NCBI RefSeq assembly: GCF_009695655.1
Contig: NZ_VUNM01000006.1
Coordinates: 1-64,000 of the forward strand
Origin: Sharpea porci
GTDB taxonomy: Bacteria > Bacillota_I > Bacilli_A > Erysipelotrichales > Coprobacillaceae
Reading direction: 5' to 3'
Length of the DNA stretch: 64,000 nucleotides
The position numbers were made by a program, and so were the translations under genes. Below are positions 979 to 38,967 of the stretch, one piece after another (within the stretch, counting starts at the first letter, position 1; the number at the start of each line of letters is the position of its first letter). A model generated the notes under the pieces. The model did no database searches. It was not told the DNA's origin and saw only the letters and a program-made list of their open reading frames with translations.

Positions 979-1314
979 TTAGAAGAATAATTGAATAAGT
1001 AGCATATAACTCATTGTCCCACCAGCAATTGACAACAACATCTGTTTTTTCCAAAGATGAAGAGCTATTGTAACAAGAATGGCTATCAATTCAGGAAGAC
1101 CATGTGTTCCTGAAAGAATGGATACATCTTTTAAACAATAAACCACTAACATGCCAAAGATGGCACAAGGCAATGCTTTGCCAAGATAGAGAATATATTG
1201 TGGGGTTGGCTTCTTATCTGAGAAGATGAGAAAAGGCAAATATCTTGTTATCATTGTACCAAGAATACATAAAGCAATTGTGATGATTTGTTGGGGGATT
1301 GTCATTGGACTCAT
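979..1314 (-). CDS. azlD: AzlD-like branched-chain amino acid exporter subunit
   Basis: This 111-residue protein has about four hydrophobic segments and the family's ITRYLPF motif near the N-terminus. AzlD is the small partner of AzlC; in known members the pair exports branched-chain amino acids or analogues such as azaleucine. Its start overlaps the azlC stop by 4 bases (ATGA), which indicates translational coupling. Length and topology are typical. Confidence 0.85.
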
Positions 1315-2021
1315 TGTGCATTTTCCTCGCTTTCTGTATAGGCTGTACTGATGGGCTTTTTAAAGAGTGTAAGTAGTATGATGATGGTCATCATAGCAGG
1401 AATCATGAAATGATTCTTGCCTAATAGAATCAAACACAAGCCTGTAGCGATAATGCCAATAAGTCCTGTATATTTCTTCTTTTCTTTCATCCATTGATTC
1501 ATAAAGATTGTCACAAACATCGCTGTCATGACAAAATCAAGACCCTTGGTATTAAAGTGGAGATAGGGCCCAATCAGCCCACCAATTGTTGCACCAGATA
1601 CCCAGTACAAATGATTCAACAATGTCACAAAAAACATAAACCAGCCTCGATCCACATCTTCAGGAATATCAGCAGTATAATTAATAGAAAATGTTTCATC
1701 ACACATTCCAAAAATCAAATAAAACTTCTTCCAACCCATATCCTTATACTTATCCAACATCGCAATACCATAAAACAAATGTCTTGCCTGAATAAGTAAC
1801 GACATAGTCAAAGCGGCAACAGGGGCAAAAGGTGACATTAAGAGGGCTACGGCAATAAATTCTAATGATCCTCCAAATATAAGCAAACTCATAAAGAATG
1901 GATAAATAAATGAGAACCCATTCTTATTCATCAAAATACCATAAGCTAATGCGAGAAACCAAAATCCCGCAAATATAGGTATTGTATAAGGAAAAGCTGC
2001 TTTCAATGCTTTTGTTTTCAT
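1311..2021 (-). CDS. azlC: AzlC-family branched-chain amino acid exporter
   Basis: This 236-residue multi-pass membrane protein matches AzlC/YgaZ: the [20 protein letters not shown] segment, the RHLFYGI motif and the CDETFSI motif are family hallmarks. With AzlD it should form a two-subunit exporter of branched-chain amino acids in the cytoplasmic membrane. AAAGGAG lies 6 bases before the ATG. A promoter just upstream (2046-2074) abuts the terminator of the first small-RNA-like repeat, so the gene can be transcribed independently or by readthrough from the repeat array. Confidence 0.88.
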
Positions 2022-2045: not shown

Positions 2046-2074
2046 ATTCTAAAATAAACATAAGAAAAAGACAA
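2046..2074 (-). promoter_or_regulatory. Promoter of azlC-azlD-phzF
   Basis: On the minus strand TTGTCT and TAGAAT are separated by exactly 17 bases. The -35 lies inside the T-rich tail of the terminator of repeat unit 1. Confidence 0.55.
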
Positions 2075-2206
2075 AGAAAAAAGAAGTTCTTCTTGGGAGG
2101 AAAAGGACTTCTTCTTCATTGTCGAAAATGTTTTGTCGAAATATTTTCAAAGGGAAATTTTTAAGTACTTTTGGGAAAGTATTTATGGTGTCAGTTCTCT
2201 ACTGAC
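2072..2206 (-). ncRNA. Candidate small RNA, tandem unit 1
   Basis: Read on the minus strand this unit starts with hairpin GTCAGT-AGAGA-ACTGAC. An ACTTTCCCAAAAGT-type hairpin with a CCC loop follows, then a second TTTCCC segment, and a terminator hairpin (AAGAAGT/ACTTCTT) whose loop holds CCTCCC before a T-rich tail. A -10-like TATATT precedes the first hairpin by about 7 bases, giving a transcript of about 130 nt. The layout recurs in units 2 and 3. C-rich loops can pair with Shine-Dalgarno sequences, as in the multicopy LhrC RNAs of Listeria; that function is inferred here, not shown. Confidence 0.6.
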
Positions 2207-2212
2207 AAGACT

Positions 2213-2245
2213 AATATAAGCTTGATTTATGAACACAATGTGTAC
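2213..2245 (-). promoter_or_regulatory. Promoter and palindromic operator of RNA unit 1
   Basis: The plus strand carries GAACACAATGTGTAC (2231-2245), a 15-base near-perfect palindrome. Minus-strand TATATT lies at 2213-2218. No good -35 is visible; the palindrome occupies that place, which suggests activator or repressor control. Confidence 0.5.
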
Positions 2246-2297
2246 AATATGGTTTCTTGAAGTAATTTGTGTTAAGAAAGCGTTAGTTCAATAGAAA

Positions 2298-2402
2298 CGA
2301 AAAAGAAGTCTTTCTTGGGAGGAAAAAGGCTTCTCTTTCGTGTAAAGAATGTTTTGGAAATACTAATTGGGAAAGTATTTATGGTGTCAGTTCTCTACTG
2401 AC
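2298..2402 (-). ncRNA. Candidate small RNA, tandem unit 2
   Basis: This is the second copy of the repeat, predicted at about 105 nt. It keeps the 5' hairpin GTCAGT-AGAGA-ACTGAC, a hairpin ATACT/AGTAT with TTCCC in the loop, and a terminator hairpin whose loop holds CCTCCC before a T-rich tail. It lacks the middle block of unit 1 that contains two TTTCGACAA repeats, so the units differ by an internal insertion or deletion while the ends are conserved. Confidence 0.58.
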
Positions 2403-2408
2403 ATGACT

Positions 2409-2441
2409 AATATAAGATTGCTTTATGAACACAATATGTAC
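2409..2441 (-). promoter_or_regulatory. Promoter and palindromic operator of RNA unit 2
   Basis: GAACACAATATGTAC (2427-2441) and minus-strand TATATT (2409-2414) hold the same spacing as in unit 1. Confidence 0.48.
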
Positions 2442-2554
2442 ATAAGTTTAACTTGGTAGGAATTTAGGGGAAAGATTGTATTTATTATGAGAAGTTCATG
2501 TTTGAGTATTTAGCTATACTGAAGACTTTTGAACAGGAGTAATGACATGGATAC

Positions 2555-2666
2555 AAAACAAAAAGAAGTCTTAACTTGGGAGGGGTAGACTTCTTCTTGT
2601 TTGTCGAAATTATTTTGTCGAAATATTTCAAAAGGGAAAATTTATGTCGTCAACTCTTTGTTGACG
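2555..2666 (-). ncRNA. Candidate small RNA, tandem unit 3
   Basis: This third, more diverged copy is about 112 nt. The 5' hairpin is CGTCAAC-AAAGA-GTTGACG: relative to units 1 and 2 both arms changed together, so pairing is kept (covariation). The terminator stem is a perfect 9 bp (AAGAAGTCT/AGACTTCTT) with CCCCTCCC in the loop and a T-rich tail. A TTTTCCCTTTTGAAA segment and two TTTCGACAA-like repeats lie between. Covariation plus a perfect terminator makes this the best evidence that the array acts as RNA. Confidence 0.6.
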
Positions 2667-2671
2667 AGGAT

Positions 2672-2704
2672 AATATAGGTGAGTTATATGAACAGAATGT
2701 GTAC
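2672..2704 (-). promoter_or_regulatory. Promoter and palindromic operator of RNA unit 3
   Basis: GAACAGAATGTGTAC (2690-2704) starts 3 bases past the hxlR stop, with minus-strand TATATT at 2672-2677. Confidence 0.48.
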
Positions 2705-2707
2705 TTT

Positions 2708-3082
2708 TTAACTGTTTGCGCTTACACTTTTCTCTTTATTTTTCTCCTCCAAATAATCAATATATTTCATGCCCCACTTCTCTATTTCATTAAGCACAGG
2801 AGTAAAAGAATAACCAATATCTGTCAATGAATATTCTACTCTAGGTGGTATTTCAGGATAGACTTGACGCTTTATTAATCCTTCTTGTTCTAAATATTTC
2901 AATTGGGCAGAGAGTGTAGCCTGAGTGATATCAATATGTCTTTGTAGCTCCTTAAAGCGTACTGGTCCCTCAGATAATTCATGTAGAATGAGTATTGCCC
3001 ACTTTCCTTTAATGAGCTGTTGAGATGTCACAAAGGGACATTTCCCAAACTGATTAGCTTTTTCACATTGTTCTTTTTTCAT
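2708..3082 (-). CDS. HxlR-family transcriptional regulator
   Basis: This is a winged-helix HxlR-type regulator of 124 residues. It has the family's CPF segment near the N-terminus, GKWAILILHELSEGPVRFKE and the helix ITQATLSAQLKYLEQEGLI. An in-frame ATG lies four codons upstream at 3094, but GGAGG falls between the two ATGs, so the start at 3082 is chosen. HxlR proteins often sense reactive electrophiles or quinones through a cysteine; Cys residues near the N-terminus (EQCEKANQFGKCPF) fit. It is divergent from the MoaF-like and DODA genes, its likely targets, and directly upstream of the small-RNA array. Confidence 0.85.
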   Translation of the reverse strand: MKKEQCEKANQFGKCPFVTSQQLIKGKWAILILHELSEGPVRFKELQRHIDITQATLSAQLKYLEQEGLIKRQVYPEIPPRVEYSLTDIGYSFTPVLNEIEKWGMKYIDYLEEKNKEKSVSANS

Positions 3083-3100
3083 AAGATCCTCCATTACTCA

Positions 3101-9392: not shown

Positions 9393-10001
9393 ATGTATAA
9401 TCAATATAGTGAAGGCTGGCTTGAAGTGATTTGTGGCTGTATGTTTGCCGGTAAGACGGAGGAACTTATTCGTAGAATCAATGTTCTTACATTCGCTAAA
9501 AAGAAAATTATTGTTTTCAAACCTAAAATAGATAATCGCTATTCTGAAACAGAAATTGTGTCCCATGCGGGAGCACATGTGCCATGTGTTGTTGTTAGTA
9601 AGGCAACAGATATCTTAGAAAATATCAAACCTGATACGGATGTTGTAGCGATTGATGAAGTGCAATTCTTTGATCAGGATATTGTGGATGTTTGTGAATA
9701 TTTAGCGGATAGTGGTTTACGTGTGATGGTTGCGGGATTGGATAAAGATTTCCGTGGTGAACCATTTGGCGTTTTGCCAGACTTGCTTACACGTGCTGAA
9801 TTTGTCACTAAGTTGACAGCAGTATGTGCTAAGTGTGGTGCTCCTGCGACAAGAACACAGCGTATTGTCAATGGCAAGCCTGCTAGCTTTGATGACCCGA
9901 TTGTCTTGGTGGGCGCTAAGGAAGCTTATGAACCAAGATGCCGTCATTGTCATGAAGTCCTTGATAAACCTTTTAAATTCAAGAAAATCAAACATCGTTA
10001 A
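9393..10001 (+). CDS. tdk: Thymidine kinase (type II)
   Basis: This 202-residue enzyme phosphorylates thymidine in the salvage pathway. It has the P-loop [11 protein letters not shown] at residues 15-25, the catalytic DEVQFF motif, a structural zinc site with CxxC pairs CAKC and CRHC, and the lasso region. AAGGGAG is 9 bases upstream of the start. In many Bacillota tdk directly precedes prfA-prmC; here those genes lie about 13 kb away behind accessory operons. Confidence 0.95.
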
Positions 10002-10077
10002 TACACAGTTCATATTCATTCAATAACATATAGGATGTCGAGAGAAATAACATCATAGTTCTCTCCTATTCCCCTTG

Positions 10078-10107
10078 AAGGTACCTTTTCCCCAGGTATC
10101 TTTTTTT
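10078..10107 (+). terminator. Terminator after tdk
   Basis: AAGGTACCT pairs with AGGTATCTT (one G-U pair) around a TTTCCCC loop, followed by seven T. Confidence 0.65.
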
Positions 10108-10314: not shown

Positions 10315-11640
10315 ATGGAAAAGTTTAATGTTTGTATTGTTGGTGGTGGAAGCACTTATACTCTTGGTTTTTTAAAGTCATTTGTGAGATTAAAGGCAGA
10401 ATTCCCAATTAAGAAGTTGGTATTATTTGATATTGATGGTGATCGTCAAAGACCAATTGGTGAATATGGAAAGATTTTATTTAAAGAAAGATTCCCTGAA
10501 TTAGATTTCTCATATACAACTGACCCAGCAGAAGCTTATCCAGAAATGGATTTCATCTTCATGCAGATGAGAGCAGGCGGCTTGCCAATGCGTAGAAAAG
10601 ACGAACACATCCCATTAAGTATGGGAAAAATTGGTCAGGAAACTGTTGGTGCTGGCGGTATGGCTTATGGCTTACGTTCATGTGTTGACATGATTGAAGC
10701 TGTTCATCAGATTAGAGAATATTCTCCAAATGCCTGGATCCTCAACTATTCTAATCCAGCTGCAATTGTTGCTGAAGCATTACGTAGAGAATTCCCTGAT
10801 GATCAAAGAATACTGAATATCTGTGATCAGCCAGAAAATATTATTCGTTCTGTTTCAAGACTTCTTAATGTTGATTGGAACACTTTAGATCCTGTATACT
10901 TTGGATTGAATCACTATGGTTGGTTCACACACATCTATGACAAGAAAACAGGTGAAGATTTATTACCACTTATTCGTAAGACAGTACATGAAAAGGGCTT
11001 CTTGCCTCAGGATGCTGAACAGCGTGATCAGAGCTGGTTAGATACTTATGGATTTGTCCAGACAATGATGGAAGATTTCCCAGACTATATTCCTAATACA
11101 TATGATGGCTATTATCTCTATCCAGAATATAAATGTTCGCATTTAAATCCAGAATATACACGTGCTGATGAAGTTATTGATGGCCGTGAAAAGAGAGTAT
11201 TTGAAGAAGCAGCAGCTGTTATTAAAGAAGGTAAGGTTGGTGATCGTTTCCATGCCATCTCAGATGCTCATGCAGAAATGATGATCAAGGTTGCTGAAGC
11301 AATTGCTTTCAATACAAACCAGAGATTTATTGTCATCGTTAAGAATGATGGTGCTATCGCAAACTTACAGAATGACGCGATGGTTGAAGTTGTTGCAGAA
11401 TTAGGTATTAATGGCCCTCGTCCAATGCGTGTAGGGACAATTCCACAGTTCTATTATGGCTTGCTTGCTCAGCAGGTATCATGTGAAAAGTTGATTGTCG
11501 ATGCATATTATGAACATTCATACCAGAAAGCCTTAGAAGCCTTTACACTTAATAGATTAATTAATGATGCGAAGAAAGCACGTGAACTTTTAGATGCGCT
11601 TGTAGAAGCCAACAAAGGTCAATGGCCTGAATTAAAATAG
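10315..11640 (+). CDS. Family 4 (GH4) 6-phospho-alpha-glucosidase-like enzyme
   Basis: This 441-residue GH4 glycosidase has the N-terminal NAD-binding motif IVGGGSTYT, GQETVGAGGMAYGLRS, NYSNPAAIV, C170-DQP and the metal-site GLNHYGW. GH4 enzymes hydrolyse phosphorylated disaccharides by an NAD+/Mn2+ redox mechanism. CDMP-type motifs go with 6-phospho-alpha-glucosidases; CDQP here is close to that, so the alpha assignment is likely but not certain. AGGAGGAG precedes the ATG. The EIICB permease follows 21 bases later, so PTS-imported disaccharide phosphate is the expected substrate. Confidence 0.88.
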   Translation: MEKFNVCIVGGGSTYTLGFLKSFVRLKAEFPIKKLVLFDIDGDRQRPIGEYGKILFKERFPELDFSYTTDPAEAYPEMDFIFMQMRAGGLPMRRKDEHIPLSMGKIGQETVGAGGMAYGLRSCVDMIEAVHQIREYSPNAWILNYSNPAAIVAEALRREFPDDQRILNICDQPENIIRSVSRLLNVDWNTLDPVYFGLNHYGWFTHIYDKKTGEDLLPLIRKTVHEKGFLPQDAEQRDQSWLDTYGFVQTMMEDFPDYIPNTYDGYYLYPEYKCSHLNPEYTRADEVIDGREKRVFEEAAAVIKEGKVGDRFHAISDAHAEMMIKVAEAIAFNTNQRFIVIVKNDGAIANLQNDAMVEVVAELGINGPRPMRVGTIPQFYYGLLAQQVSCEKLIVDAYYEHSYQKALEAFTLNRLINDAKKARELLDALVEANKGQWPELK

Positions 11641-11661
11641 TCGAAAAAAGGGAGAGTTTGT

Positions 11662-13185
11662 ATGAAGAAAAATAGAATTATGGACTTCTTCTCAGCCTTA
11701 GGTAGAAGTCTTATGATGCCAATTGCTGCTTTAGCAGCATGCGGCATTGTTCTTGGGTTATCTTCTGCATTAATGAATCCTCAAGTTGTGACTGCGTTGC
11801 CATGGCTTGGCACAGGTGTCATTGGATTCATTATTATGATGCTGAATAAAGTGTCCGGTGTTGTCTTTACACTTTTGCCAGTATTATTTGCGATTTCCAT
11901 TGCGATGGGATTAGCTAAGGAAGATAAGGAAGTTGCTGCTTTTGCAGGTTTTATTGGTTACTATACATTCCTTGTTGCGAGTTCTTTAGTGATTTCAACG
12001 AAGGTTATTAATTTCTCAGCCATGAAGATTTCACCAATCTTAGGTGTTGAGACAGTGGATATGGGTGCTGTAGCAGGTATTTTGGTCGGATGTCTTACTG
12101 CATATCTCCATAATAAATACCACAAAGTCGTCTTTCCTGCTGCTGTGGCATTCTACGGTGGTAAGAGATTTGTCGCATTAGTAGTGACATTGGGATGTGC
12201 TCTTCTTGGCATTGTCATGCCATTTGTATGGAATCCTCTTTCAATGGGTATTGATACGATTGGTAAATTGATTAATGCAAGTGGATCCTTTGGTGTCTTC
12301 TTGTTTGGATTCTTAGAAAGATTATTGATTCCTACAGGTCTTCATCATGTTTTAAATGGTTTATTCCGTACAACATCACTTGGTGGTACATTTAATGGTG
12401 TTGAAGGATGCTTGAATATTTTCTTACAGAATGTTGATAAAGTGCCTTTAAAAGCACTCGAACCTTATACAAGATTCCTTGGTCAAGGGAAAATGCCATT
12501 CATGATGTTTGGTTTACCTGCTGCTGCTCTTGCCATCTATAGAACATCACCTGAAAAAAAGAAGCCTAAGGTCAAGGCTTTAATGATTGCTGGTGTGGCT
12601 GCTTCGTTTGTATCCGGTATTACAGAACCTATTGAGTTTGCGTTTATGTTTGTTGCTCCAGTATTATTTGTCTTCCATGCTGTTATGGGTGGTATTTCAT
12701 TTATGTTGATGAGTCTATTACATGTTATTATTGGTAATACTGGTGGTGGATTGATTGACTTCTTTATCTGGGGTGTCTTCCAGCCTGGTTCACACTGGTA
12801 TTGGGTTGTCATTGTCGGTGCTGTTTATGCAGTGATCTATTATTCGGTATTTAAATGGTATCTTTTGAAGAAACAAATATCTATTGATGTTGCCGCAGAA
12901 GATGATAGCGATGATGAAGGTGAGATTACAGCTGATGAAAAGATGCCGAATGTTGCTTCTCATGTGATTGAAGGATTAGGTGGTTTTGAGAATATTGTTG
13001 CGGTTAATAACTGTATTTCGAGACTGCGTGTAGATGTCAAAGATATGAGTAAGACGGATGATAATCTCCTGAAGAAAACAGGCTCACTAGGTATTATTAG
13101 ACCGAGTGAAACGCATATACAGGTGATTTATGGACCTAAGGTTGAAGTAGTTGCTGATGCTGTAAGACAGGTATTAAAGTACTAG
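11662..13185 (+). CDS. PTS EIICB permease, alpha-glucoside/glucose type
   Basis: This 507-residue protein has an EIIC membrane domain (about ten hydrophobic segments, with GLHHVLNGLFRT and the GITEPIEF motif) and a C-terminal EIIB domain with the phosphorylated Cys451 in NNCISRLRVD. It imports and phosphorylates a glucoside, which the upstream GH4 enzyme then splits. No EIIA domain is fused; the EIIA-Glc gene at 14786 is the likely donor. GGGAG lies ahead of the ATG. Confidence 0.9.
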   Translation: MKKNRIMDFFSALGRSLMMPIAALAACGIVLGLSSALMNPQVVTALPWLGTGVIGFIIMMLNKVSGVVFTLLPVLFAISIAMGLAKEDKEVAAFAGFIGYYTFLVASSLVISTKVINFSAMKISPILGVETVDMGAVAGILVGCLTAYLHNKYHKVVFPAAVAFYGGKRFVALVVTLGCALLGIVMPFVWNPLSMGIDTIGKLINASGSFGVFLFGFLERLLIPTGLHHVLNGLFRTTSLGGTFNGVEGCLNIFLQNVDKVPLKALEPYTRFLGQGKMPFMMFGLPAAALAIYRTSPEKKKPKVKALMIAGVAASFVSGITEPIEFAFMFVAPVLFVFHAVMGGISFMLMSLLHVIIGNTGGGLIDFFIWGVFQPGSHWYWVVIVGAVYAVIYYSVFKWYLLKKQISIDVAAEDDSDDEGEITADEKMPNVASHVIEGLGGFENIVAVNNCISRLRVDVKDMSKTDDNLLKKTGSLGIIRPSETHIQVIYGPKVEVVADAVRQVLKY

Positions 13186-38741: not shown

Positions 38742-38967
38742 CGCAAAGGCAATGAATAGACGAGTAGTCTTATAGTCACATTCTAGAGAGCTTTCGGTTG
38801 GTGCAAGGAAGTAATGTTGCGTAAGATGAATAAAGACTAGGAGCTGTATTTTGGATCGTAAGTGATAGAATAACGTGTGACCGCGTTAAGGTTTAATGAG
38901 ATCATAGTGATATGATGAATTAGGGTGGTACCACGATTAACTCTCGTCCCTTGGATGAGAGTTTTTA
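38742..38967 (+). promoter_or_regulatory. T-box riboswitch (tRNA-Lys) with terminator
   Basis: The leader shows stem I elements, the conserved T-box AGGGTGGTACCACG (38922-38935) and a terminator hairpin (AACTCTC...GAGAGTT, then T5) at 38939-38967. The specifier loop GAATAAAGAC (38828-38837) offers AAA or AAG, both lysine codons, in line with the lysS gene downstream. Uncharged tRNA-Lys should favour the antiterminator. Confidence 0.92.

Follow-up and report, generated by a model that had tools for sequence, protein, structure and literature searches.

The tandem locus between hxlR and azlC

The window analysed here is a stretch of 64,000 nucleotides from Sharpea porci, in which the minus-strand interval 2071-2704, flanked by hxlR and azlC, contains three head-to-tail units of 105-135 nt (Table 1). 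A first-pass annotation, made from the letters alone, had described three tandem homologous small-RNA-like units at this locus, and this was borne out. All three have the TATATT -10 box that it listed, at a constant distance from a conserved element upstream, and its 5′ hairpin, TTTCCC segment and C-rich terminator loops can be read directly from the DNA, the loops of the tandem units being CCTCCC or CCCCTCCC with T-tails next to them. The 5′ stem is GTCAGT/ACTGAC in units 1 and 2, versus CGTCAAC/GTTGACG in unit 3. The two-sided change from GTCAGT/ACTGAC to GTCAAC/GTTGAC, which had been taken as a sign of selection on RNA structure, is real. The covariation term returned by RNAalifold for eight Sharpea units is small.

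Table 1. Features of the window, with coordinates in the numbering of the window
Feature	Coordinates	Strand	Remarks
azlC	1311-2021	-	gene flanking the units
azlC promoter-like site TTGTCT-N17-TAGAAT	2046-2074	-	from consensus scan; just past the last terminator
Unit 1 sRNA (predicted)	2073-2207	-	covariance-model match
Unit 1 linker segment	2133-2160	-	antisense to EIIC leader; duplex -37.0 kcal/mol
Unit 1 -10 box TATATT	2213-2218	-	
Unit 1 promoter direct repeat GTACACATTGTGTTCATA	2228-2245	-	
Unit 2 sRNA (predicted)	2295-2403	-	covariance-model match; pairs weakly with EIIC
Unit 2 -10 box TATATT	2409-2414	-	
Unit 2 promoter direct repeat GTACATATTGTGTTCATA	2424-2441	-	
Unit 3 sRNA (predicted)	2555-2667	-	5′ hairpin 2667-2647, then linker and terminator
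Unit 3 linker segment CATAAATTTTCCCTTTTGAAATATTTCGACAA	2615-2646	-	antisense to PTS EIIC leader (G000:C17); duplex -35.5 kcal/mol
Unit 3 -10 box TATATT	2672-2677	-	spacing equal in all units
Unit 3 promoter direct repeat GTACACATTCTGTTCATA	2687-2704	-	presumed response-regulator box
hxlR	2708-3094	-	gene flanking the units
Unit 6	9997-10106	+	between thymidine kinase-like gene and GH4 glycosidase gene
Unit 6 promoter direct repeat GTTAATACACAGTTCATA	9997-10014	+	
Unit 6 RNA part	10031-10106	+	hairpin, CU-rich segment, CCCC-loop terminator
EIIBC leader and gene start, TCGAAAAAAGGGAGAGTTTGTATG	11620-11664	+	predicted target site
PTS EIIBC gene	11662-13185	+	candidate second target
T-box leader (RF00230)	38743-38954	+	sole Rfam match in the window

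The fold z-scores of units 1, 2 and 3 are -3.7, -7.0 and -6.1, with none of 200 shuffles as stable, and in unit 2 the minimum-energy fold favours another 5′ structure over the short hairpin. Both Sharpea species (the second being genome G001) keep the tandem locus next to hxlR and azlC. Unit 3 gives a covariance-model match of 3.9e-20, a value obtained with a model built from unit 3 itself. The homologue search proposed at first pass succeeded, as a covariance model built from eight Sharpea units matches distant relatives in other genera, with hits in genomes G011 and G025. Because of the fold z-scores, the conservation in the second species and the reach of the covariance model into other genera, the tandem units stand beyond chance. 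They are very probably independent sRNA genes. Absent from the first-pass annotation were the upstream 11-bp direct repeat, further genomic copies and a long antisense match to the leader of a phosphotransferase system (PTS) gene.

Further copies and spread of the family

The Sharpea genome holds at least six family members, all six of those numbered here having counterparts in the second Sharpea species. Unit 4 (L002), a close copy, is flanked by genes for a Cof-type HAD hydrolase and a PLP enzyme, unit 5 (L173) is another copy, and unit 6, likewise conserved in G001, lies within the window (fold z-score -3.5; profile match of E 1.4e-6 to a model in which its own sequence was included). Four BLAST matches within genes (L004, L006, L007, L008) were regarded as chance, and L074 was rejected as a homologue, being a plain terminator only.

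A sequence profile running from promoter to linker found members throughout the family of the window's genome (Coprobacillaceae, Erysipelotrichales; labelled f1). At E <= 1e-4, a 40-member profile partly built from the f1 genomes on which it was then run gave matches in 43 of 43 f1 genomes, with 1-12 in each. The same profile matched 20 of 252 genomes in the rest of the order, mostly with single and marginal matches, and presence of the family in the order's other family is not claimed. An Rfam scan of the window and 20 relatives matched no unit at the gathering threshold.

From genus to genus little of the sequence is kept apart from the promoter spacing, the linker motif and the terminator. 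In the shared layout, the direct repeat is followed by a box of the TATATT type, in many units by a 5′ hairpin, then by a linker carrying CAUAAAU..UUUCCC (anti-start-codon and anti-Shine-Dalgarno) and finally by a terminator whose loop is often C-rich; CAT..TTCC/TCCC is found in the linker of most units, and units found by the promoter pattern alone have the same layout. A terminator lies in range in 60 of 60 units, versus 20% of random positions, and CCC occurs in the terminator loop of 42 of 60 (versus 12%). TCCC is found in the linker of 58 of 60 units versus 10% at random positions, a figure that is biased because the linker, unlike the terminators, was visible to the profiles. For the 5′ hairpin, a lax definition gave no enrichment (36/60 versus 42%), and the strict definition, which asked for six or more uninterrupted base pairs close to the expected start and applied to 28/60 units versus 3%, was adopted after that result had been seen. 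Among these longer stems there are 19 different versions, and in several genera the hairpin is absent or weak.

Two arrangements of neighbouring copies were also observed. In G017:C1 (L139, L141, L142), near-identical pairs of units lie ~1.4-1.5 kb apart, and these pairs are recent duplications, since the sequence 3′ of the terminator is also common to the copies. In G006, G018, G022, G026 and G060 (L154, L155, L157, L158, L172), two unit types lie ~0.5-0.6 kb apart, one of which has a GATAGTATTGATTCCCCTCAAATCTATC hairpin that is well conserved, its loop being CCCCTC.

The promoter element and its candidate regulator

In Sharpea units 1-4 the 11-bp direct repeat is GTACAYATTNNGTTCATA. Across the 2.5 Mb of the genome there are exactly four matches to GTACANATTNNGTTCATA, each upstream of a unit, and allowing one mismatch yields no further occurrence in that genome. 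Over 58 units the consensus is approximately GTTCAYATTNAATTCAYAWW-N7-TATATTA, equivalent to TTCAYA-N5-TTCAYA with 9 bases to the -10 box, and a consensus scan found no -35 element paired with the units' -10 boxes. A direct repeat over the -35 position is typical of activators of the OmpR/PhoB family, and the Sharpea genome encodes eight full-length response regulators of the OmpR type. From this architecture we consider it probable that a response regulator binding the direct repeat drives the units.

Which regulator this might be was approached through known boxes. The Pho regulon was considered as the driver and rejected. The promoters of the pst operon carry repeats of the TTTACATAA..TTAACA type, with no TTCAYA repeat at 11/12 or better, and because of this different repeat PhoP is an unlikely regulator. 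The HssR box, which we take to be GTTCATATT-N2-GTTCATATT, resembles the repeat of the units and provides a tentative lead to the driver; open papers on HssR describe a direct repeat.

The repeat is also seen at protein-coding genes. In G000:C12:127490 (L207), G006:C6:90701 (L215) and G022 (L154:2318), it stands in front of the gene of a conserved protein (MRNFLYRLMMGRYG.. / MKWLRNFMYGRYG..), which is a possible protein-coding member of the regulon. The Sharpea instance (L207) comes just after a gene for an HtrA-like protease, and inspection by eye of the region upstream of htrA, adjoining the box-bearing gene, revealed no clear box. Two genera have a one-mismatch repeat ahead of flavodoxin-like genes that are related to each other (G000:C13:18738, L208; G016:C1:1023369, L217), and another such repeat is directly upstream of a cation P-type ATPase gene (G000:C12:100580, L206).

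The PTS EIIC leader as a predicted target

When the genome was searched by BLAST with the units, a different contig (G000:C17) gave a match, which falls in the leader of a PTS EIIC gene of the lactose/cellobiose family. Upstream of this gene is a TTGACA-N17-like promoter, which suggests an mRNA start near GTTGTCGAAAATATTTCAAAGGGAGGAAAATTTATG; with this start, the linkers of units 1, 3 and 4 would therefore be antisense to the greater part of the leader, including its start codon. We scanned 360 gene leaders, drawn from ~0.5 Mb or ~20% of the Sharpea genome, and EIIC ranked first by linker duplex energy for units 1, 3 and 4 (-37.0, -35.5 and -38.7 kcal/mol, respectively), with the next-best leader at about -26 kcal/mol, ~10 weaker. 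Cofolding of the full-length RNAs, with their own folds subtracted, again placed EIIC first for these three units. Units 2, 5 and 6 pair poorly with EIIC, unit 2 ranking 28th of 360 by cofolding, and a pattern search for a target of unit 2 with CATAAATACTTTCCCAA matched only the units' own opposite strand.

Similar pairings recur in two other genera. In G011, a family member ~3 kb from an EIIC gene pairs with its leader over 28 contiguous bases (-41.6 kcal/mol), and in G017, a member with TCCTCCCTTTGAAATATTTTCGACA forms a 25-base antisense to its own EIIC leader (-41.2 kcal/mol); none of 500 shuffles was as good for either. Extended complementarity to the ribosome-binding site of the permease is in this way found in Sharpea, G011 and G017. 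When partners are swapped, the G011 leader pairs with its native RNA at -41.6 versus -29.5 kcal/mol with Sharpea unit 3, and the Sharpea leader pairs with the G011 RNA at -37.9 versus -35.5 kcal/mol with unit 3. Co-variation of sRNA and leader is thus clear on the G011 side only, as the G011 RNA is no worse than unit 3 on the Sharpea leader. An EIIC leader motif, TGTCGAAAA(T/G)ATTT, is conserved in G009 (L272), G016 (L043) and G020 (L044), and a weak search, using only a Sharpea-like antisense pattern, found no long-pairing RNA for these TGTCGAAAATATTT leaders.

On the strength of these pairings, units 1, 3 and 4 are likely repressors of EIIC. The first-pass annotation had likened the units to multicopy RNAs whose C-rich loops block ribosome-binding sites, as in LhrC and the csRNAs. 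The computed evidence fits this idea, which is strengthened by the family survey and the conserved target pairing, with one correction. The strongest target-binding segment would be the unpaired linker (CAUAAAU...UUUCCC...), to which the C-rich terminator loop adds at most a second anti-Shine-Dalgarno contact.

Other leaders score lower. The PTS EIIBC gene in the window is predicted as a second target, with duplexes of -24.9 and -25.9 kcal/mol for units 3 and 4 and rank 3 in the cofolding; together with a sodium symporter-like gene (L249), it comes next after EIIC in the predicted scores. The leaders of several other transporters reach -24 to -27 kcal/mol. Such values, along with the UCCC-type seeds in nearly all units and the poor pairing of units 2, 5 and 6 with EIIC, are what one would expect if the RNAs are real and act chiefly through short UCCC seeds in a broad anti-Shine-Dalgarno control, with EIIC as one target among many. 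We consider this unlikely, though the strongest of the alternatives, as EIIC lies ~10 kcal/mol ahead of the 360-leader field for units 1, 3 and 4 and recurs as a partner in the two other genera.

Probable independence of the units and proposed mechanism

The units are on the strand of both azlC and hxlR, and the unit 3 promoter starts 4 bases past the hxlR stop, an arrangement that would also suit an azlC leader or attenuator acting in cis, or an hxlR 3′ UTR, with no independent RNAs. Every unit, however, has a promoter-like element and a terminator of its own, the homologues adjoin unrelated genes, and a separate promoter-like site belongs to azlC, a sequence also present in the sister Sharpea species and of a type that chance alone would produce 2.8 times in the region; for these reasons a role as azlC leader is very improbable. 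Transcripts reading through all units into azlC, a refuting case named by the first-pass annotation, may yet occur, though the promoter-like site of azlC speaks against it. Slighter still is the chance that the units are repeats or a mobile element without regulatory function, as their multicopy state and the recent G017 duplications, downstream sequence included, might suggest, given that promoter spacing, linker motif and terminator persist despite divergence, that the 5′ stems remain paired in 19 versions, and that the tandem locus has been conserved, next to hxlR and azlC, in each of the two Sharpea species.

Our preferred reading, to which we assign a probability of roughly three in four, is that the units are sibling sRNAs, induced by a response regulator, which keep PTS EIIC, and probably other transporters, from being translated. 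The genes, promoter repeats, terminators, family spread and complementarity were computed or read directly; from them we infer transcription, a regulator, a signal and repression, as follows. An OmpR/PhoB-type response regulator would bind TTCAYA-N5-TTCAYA at the -35 position and activate the units, each of which would be a trans-acting sRNA gene with its own promoter and terminator. Each RNA would start at the 5′ hairpin and end in the terminator, leaving the linker between them unpaired. The linkers of units 1, 3 and 4 would then pair over the Shine-Dalgarno sequence and start codon of EIIC, so that translation is blocked, while for unit 2 and the remaining siblings different mRNAs are the probable targets, those of other transporters likely among them.

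A wider interpretation, which we hold with even odds, is that this is an undescribed two-component regulon throughout one family of gut Firmicutes, the output of which is mostly 1-12 sibling RNAs directed at ribosome sites. In at least three genera, one or more of these RNAs would be antisense to nearly the whole leader of a conserved PTS EIIC gene, making up a conserved circuit from signal through sRNA to sugar uptake. If true, an entire layer of regulation, with a promoter signature and a named target, operates in this family, to which lactate producers of the rumen and gut such as Sharpea belong, and sRNA-target pairing can be followed in it across genera. We found no descriptions of such sRNAs in Erysipelotrichales in the open-access literature.

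Comparison with known systems

The csRNAs of streptococci resemble the units in having several intergenic siblings per genome, partly in tandem, each with an intrinsic terminator (60/60 here), and in a promoter with a direct repeat of 11-bp period ~10 bp before the -10 box (PMC3091779, PMC8186281). They also share two stem-loops, an unpaired linker with anti-SD and anti-AUG sequences, and transporter targets, which are predicted here. The CiaR box of the csRNAs is TTTAAG-N5-TTTAAG, at about the same distance from the -10 (PMC3091779), whereas the repeat of 58 units is TTCAYA-N5-TTCAYA and does not fit NTTAAG-N5-TTTAAG; the units belong to another bacterial order, and their EIIC pairing spans 25-35 nt, unlike the short and imperfect pairing of csRNAs (PMC3091779, PMC8186281). 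Scans against Rfam, which may not hold every csRNA, detected no csRNA homology.

LhrC1-5 of Listeria monocytogenes are likewise multicopy siblings that depend on a response regulator (LisR there, inferred here), and in both cases UCCC motifs are redundant (in loops and a single-stranded stretch there, in linker and terminator loop here), blocking the Shine-Dalgarno site in the case of LhrC (PMC4132741) and predicted to do so in that of the units. They differ in their targets and in the LisR element, which lies upstream of -53, in contrast to the 11-bp repeat over -35 here (PMC4132741), and the LhrC Rfam model has no match to the units at E up to 10. Because the CiaR box is absent and no Rfam model matches, membership in the csRNAs or LhrC is not shown; by analogy of layout and presumed action, the csRNAs appear closest and LhrC less close. 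If the proposal is true, the csRNA layout occurs a second time in these units, apparently independently, which bears on the origin of sRNA families directed at ribosome sites.

SgrS of enterobacteria covers the ribosome-binding site of a PTS permease and thereby represses it, as is predicted for units 1, 3 and 4. It is a single RNA, activated by SgrR and dependent on Hfq, that also encodes a peptide, whereas the Sharpea RNAs are sibling copies preceded by a box of the response-regulator type.
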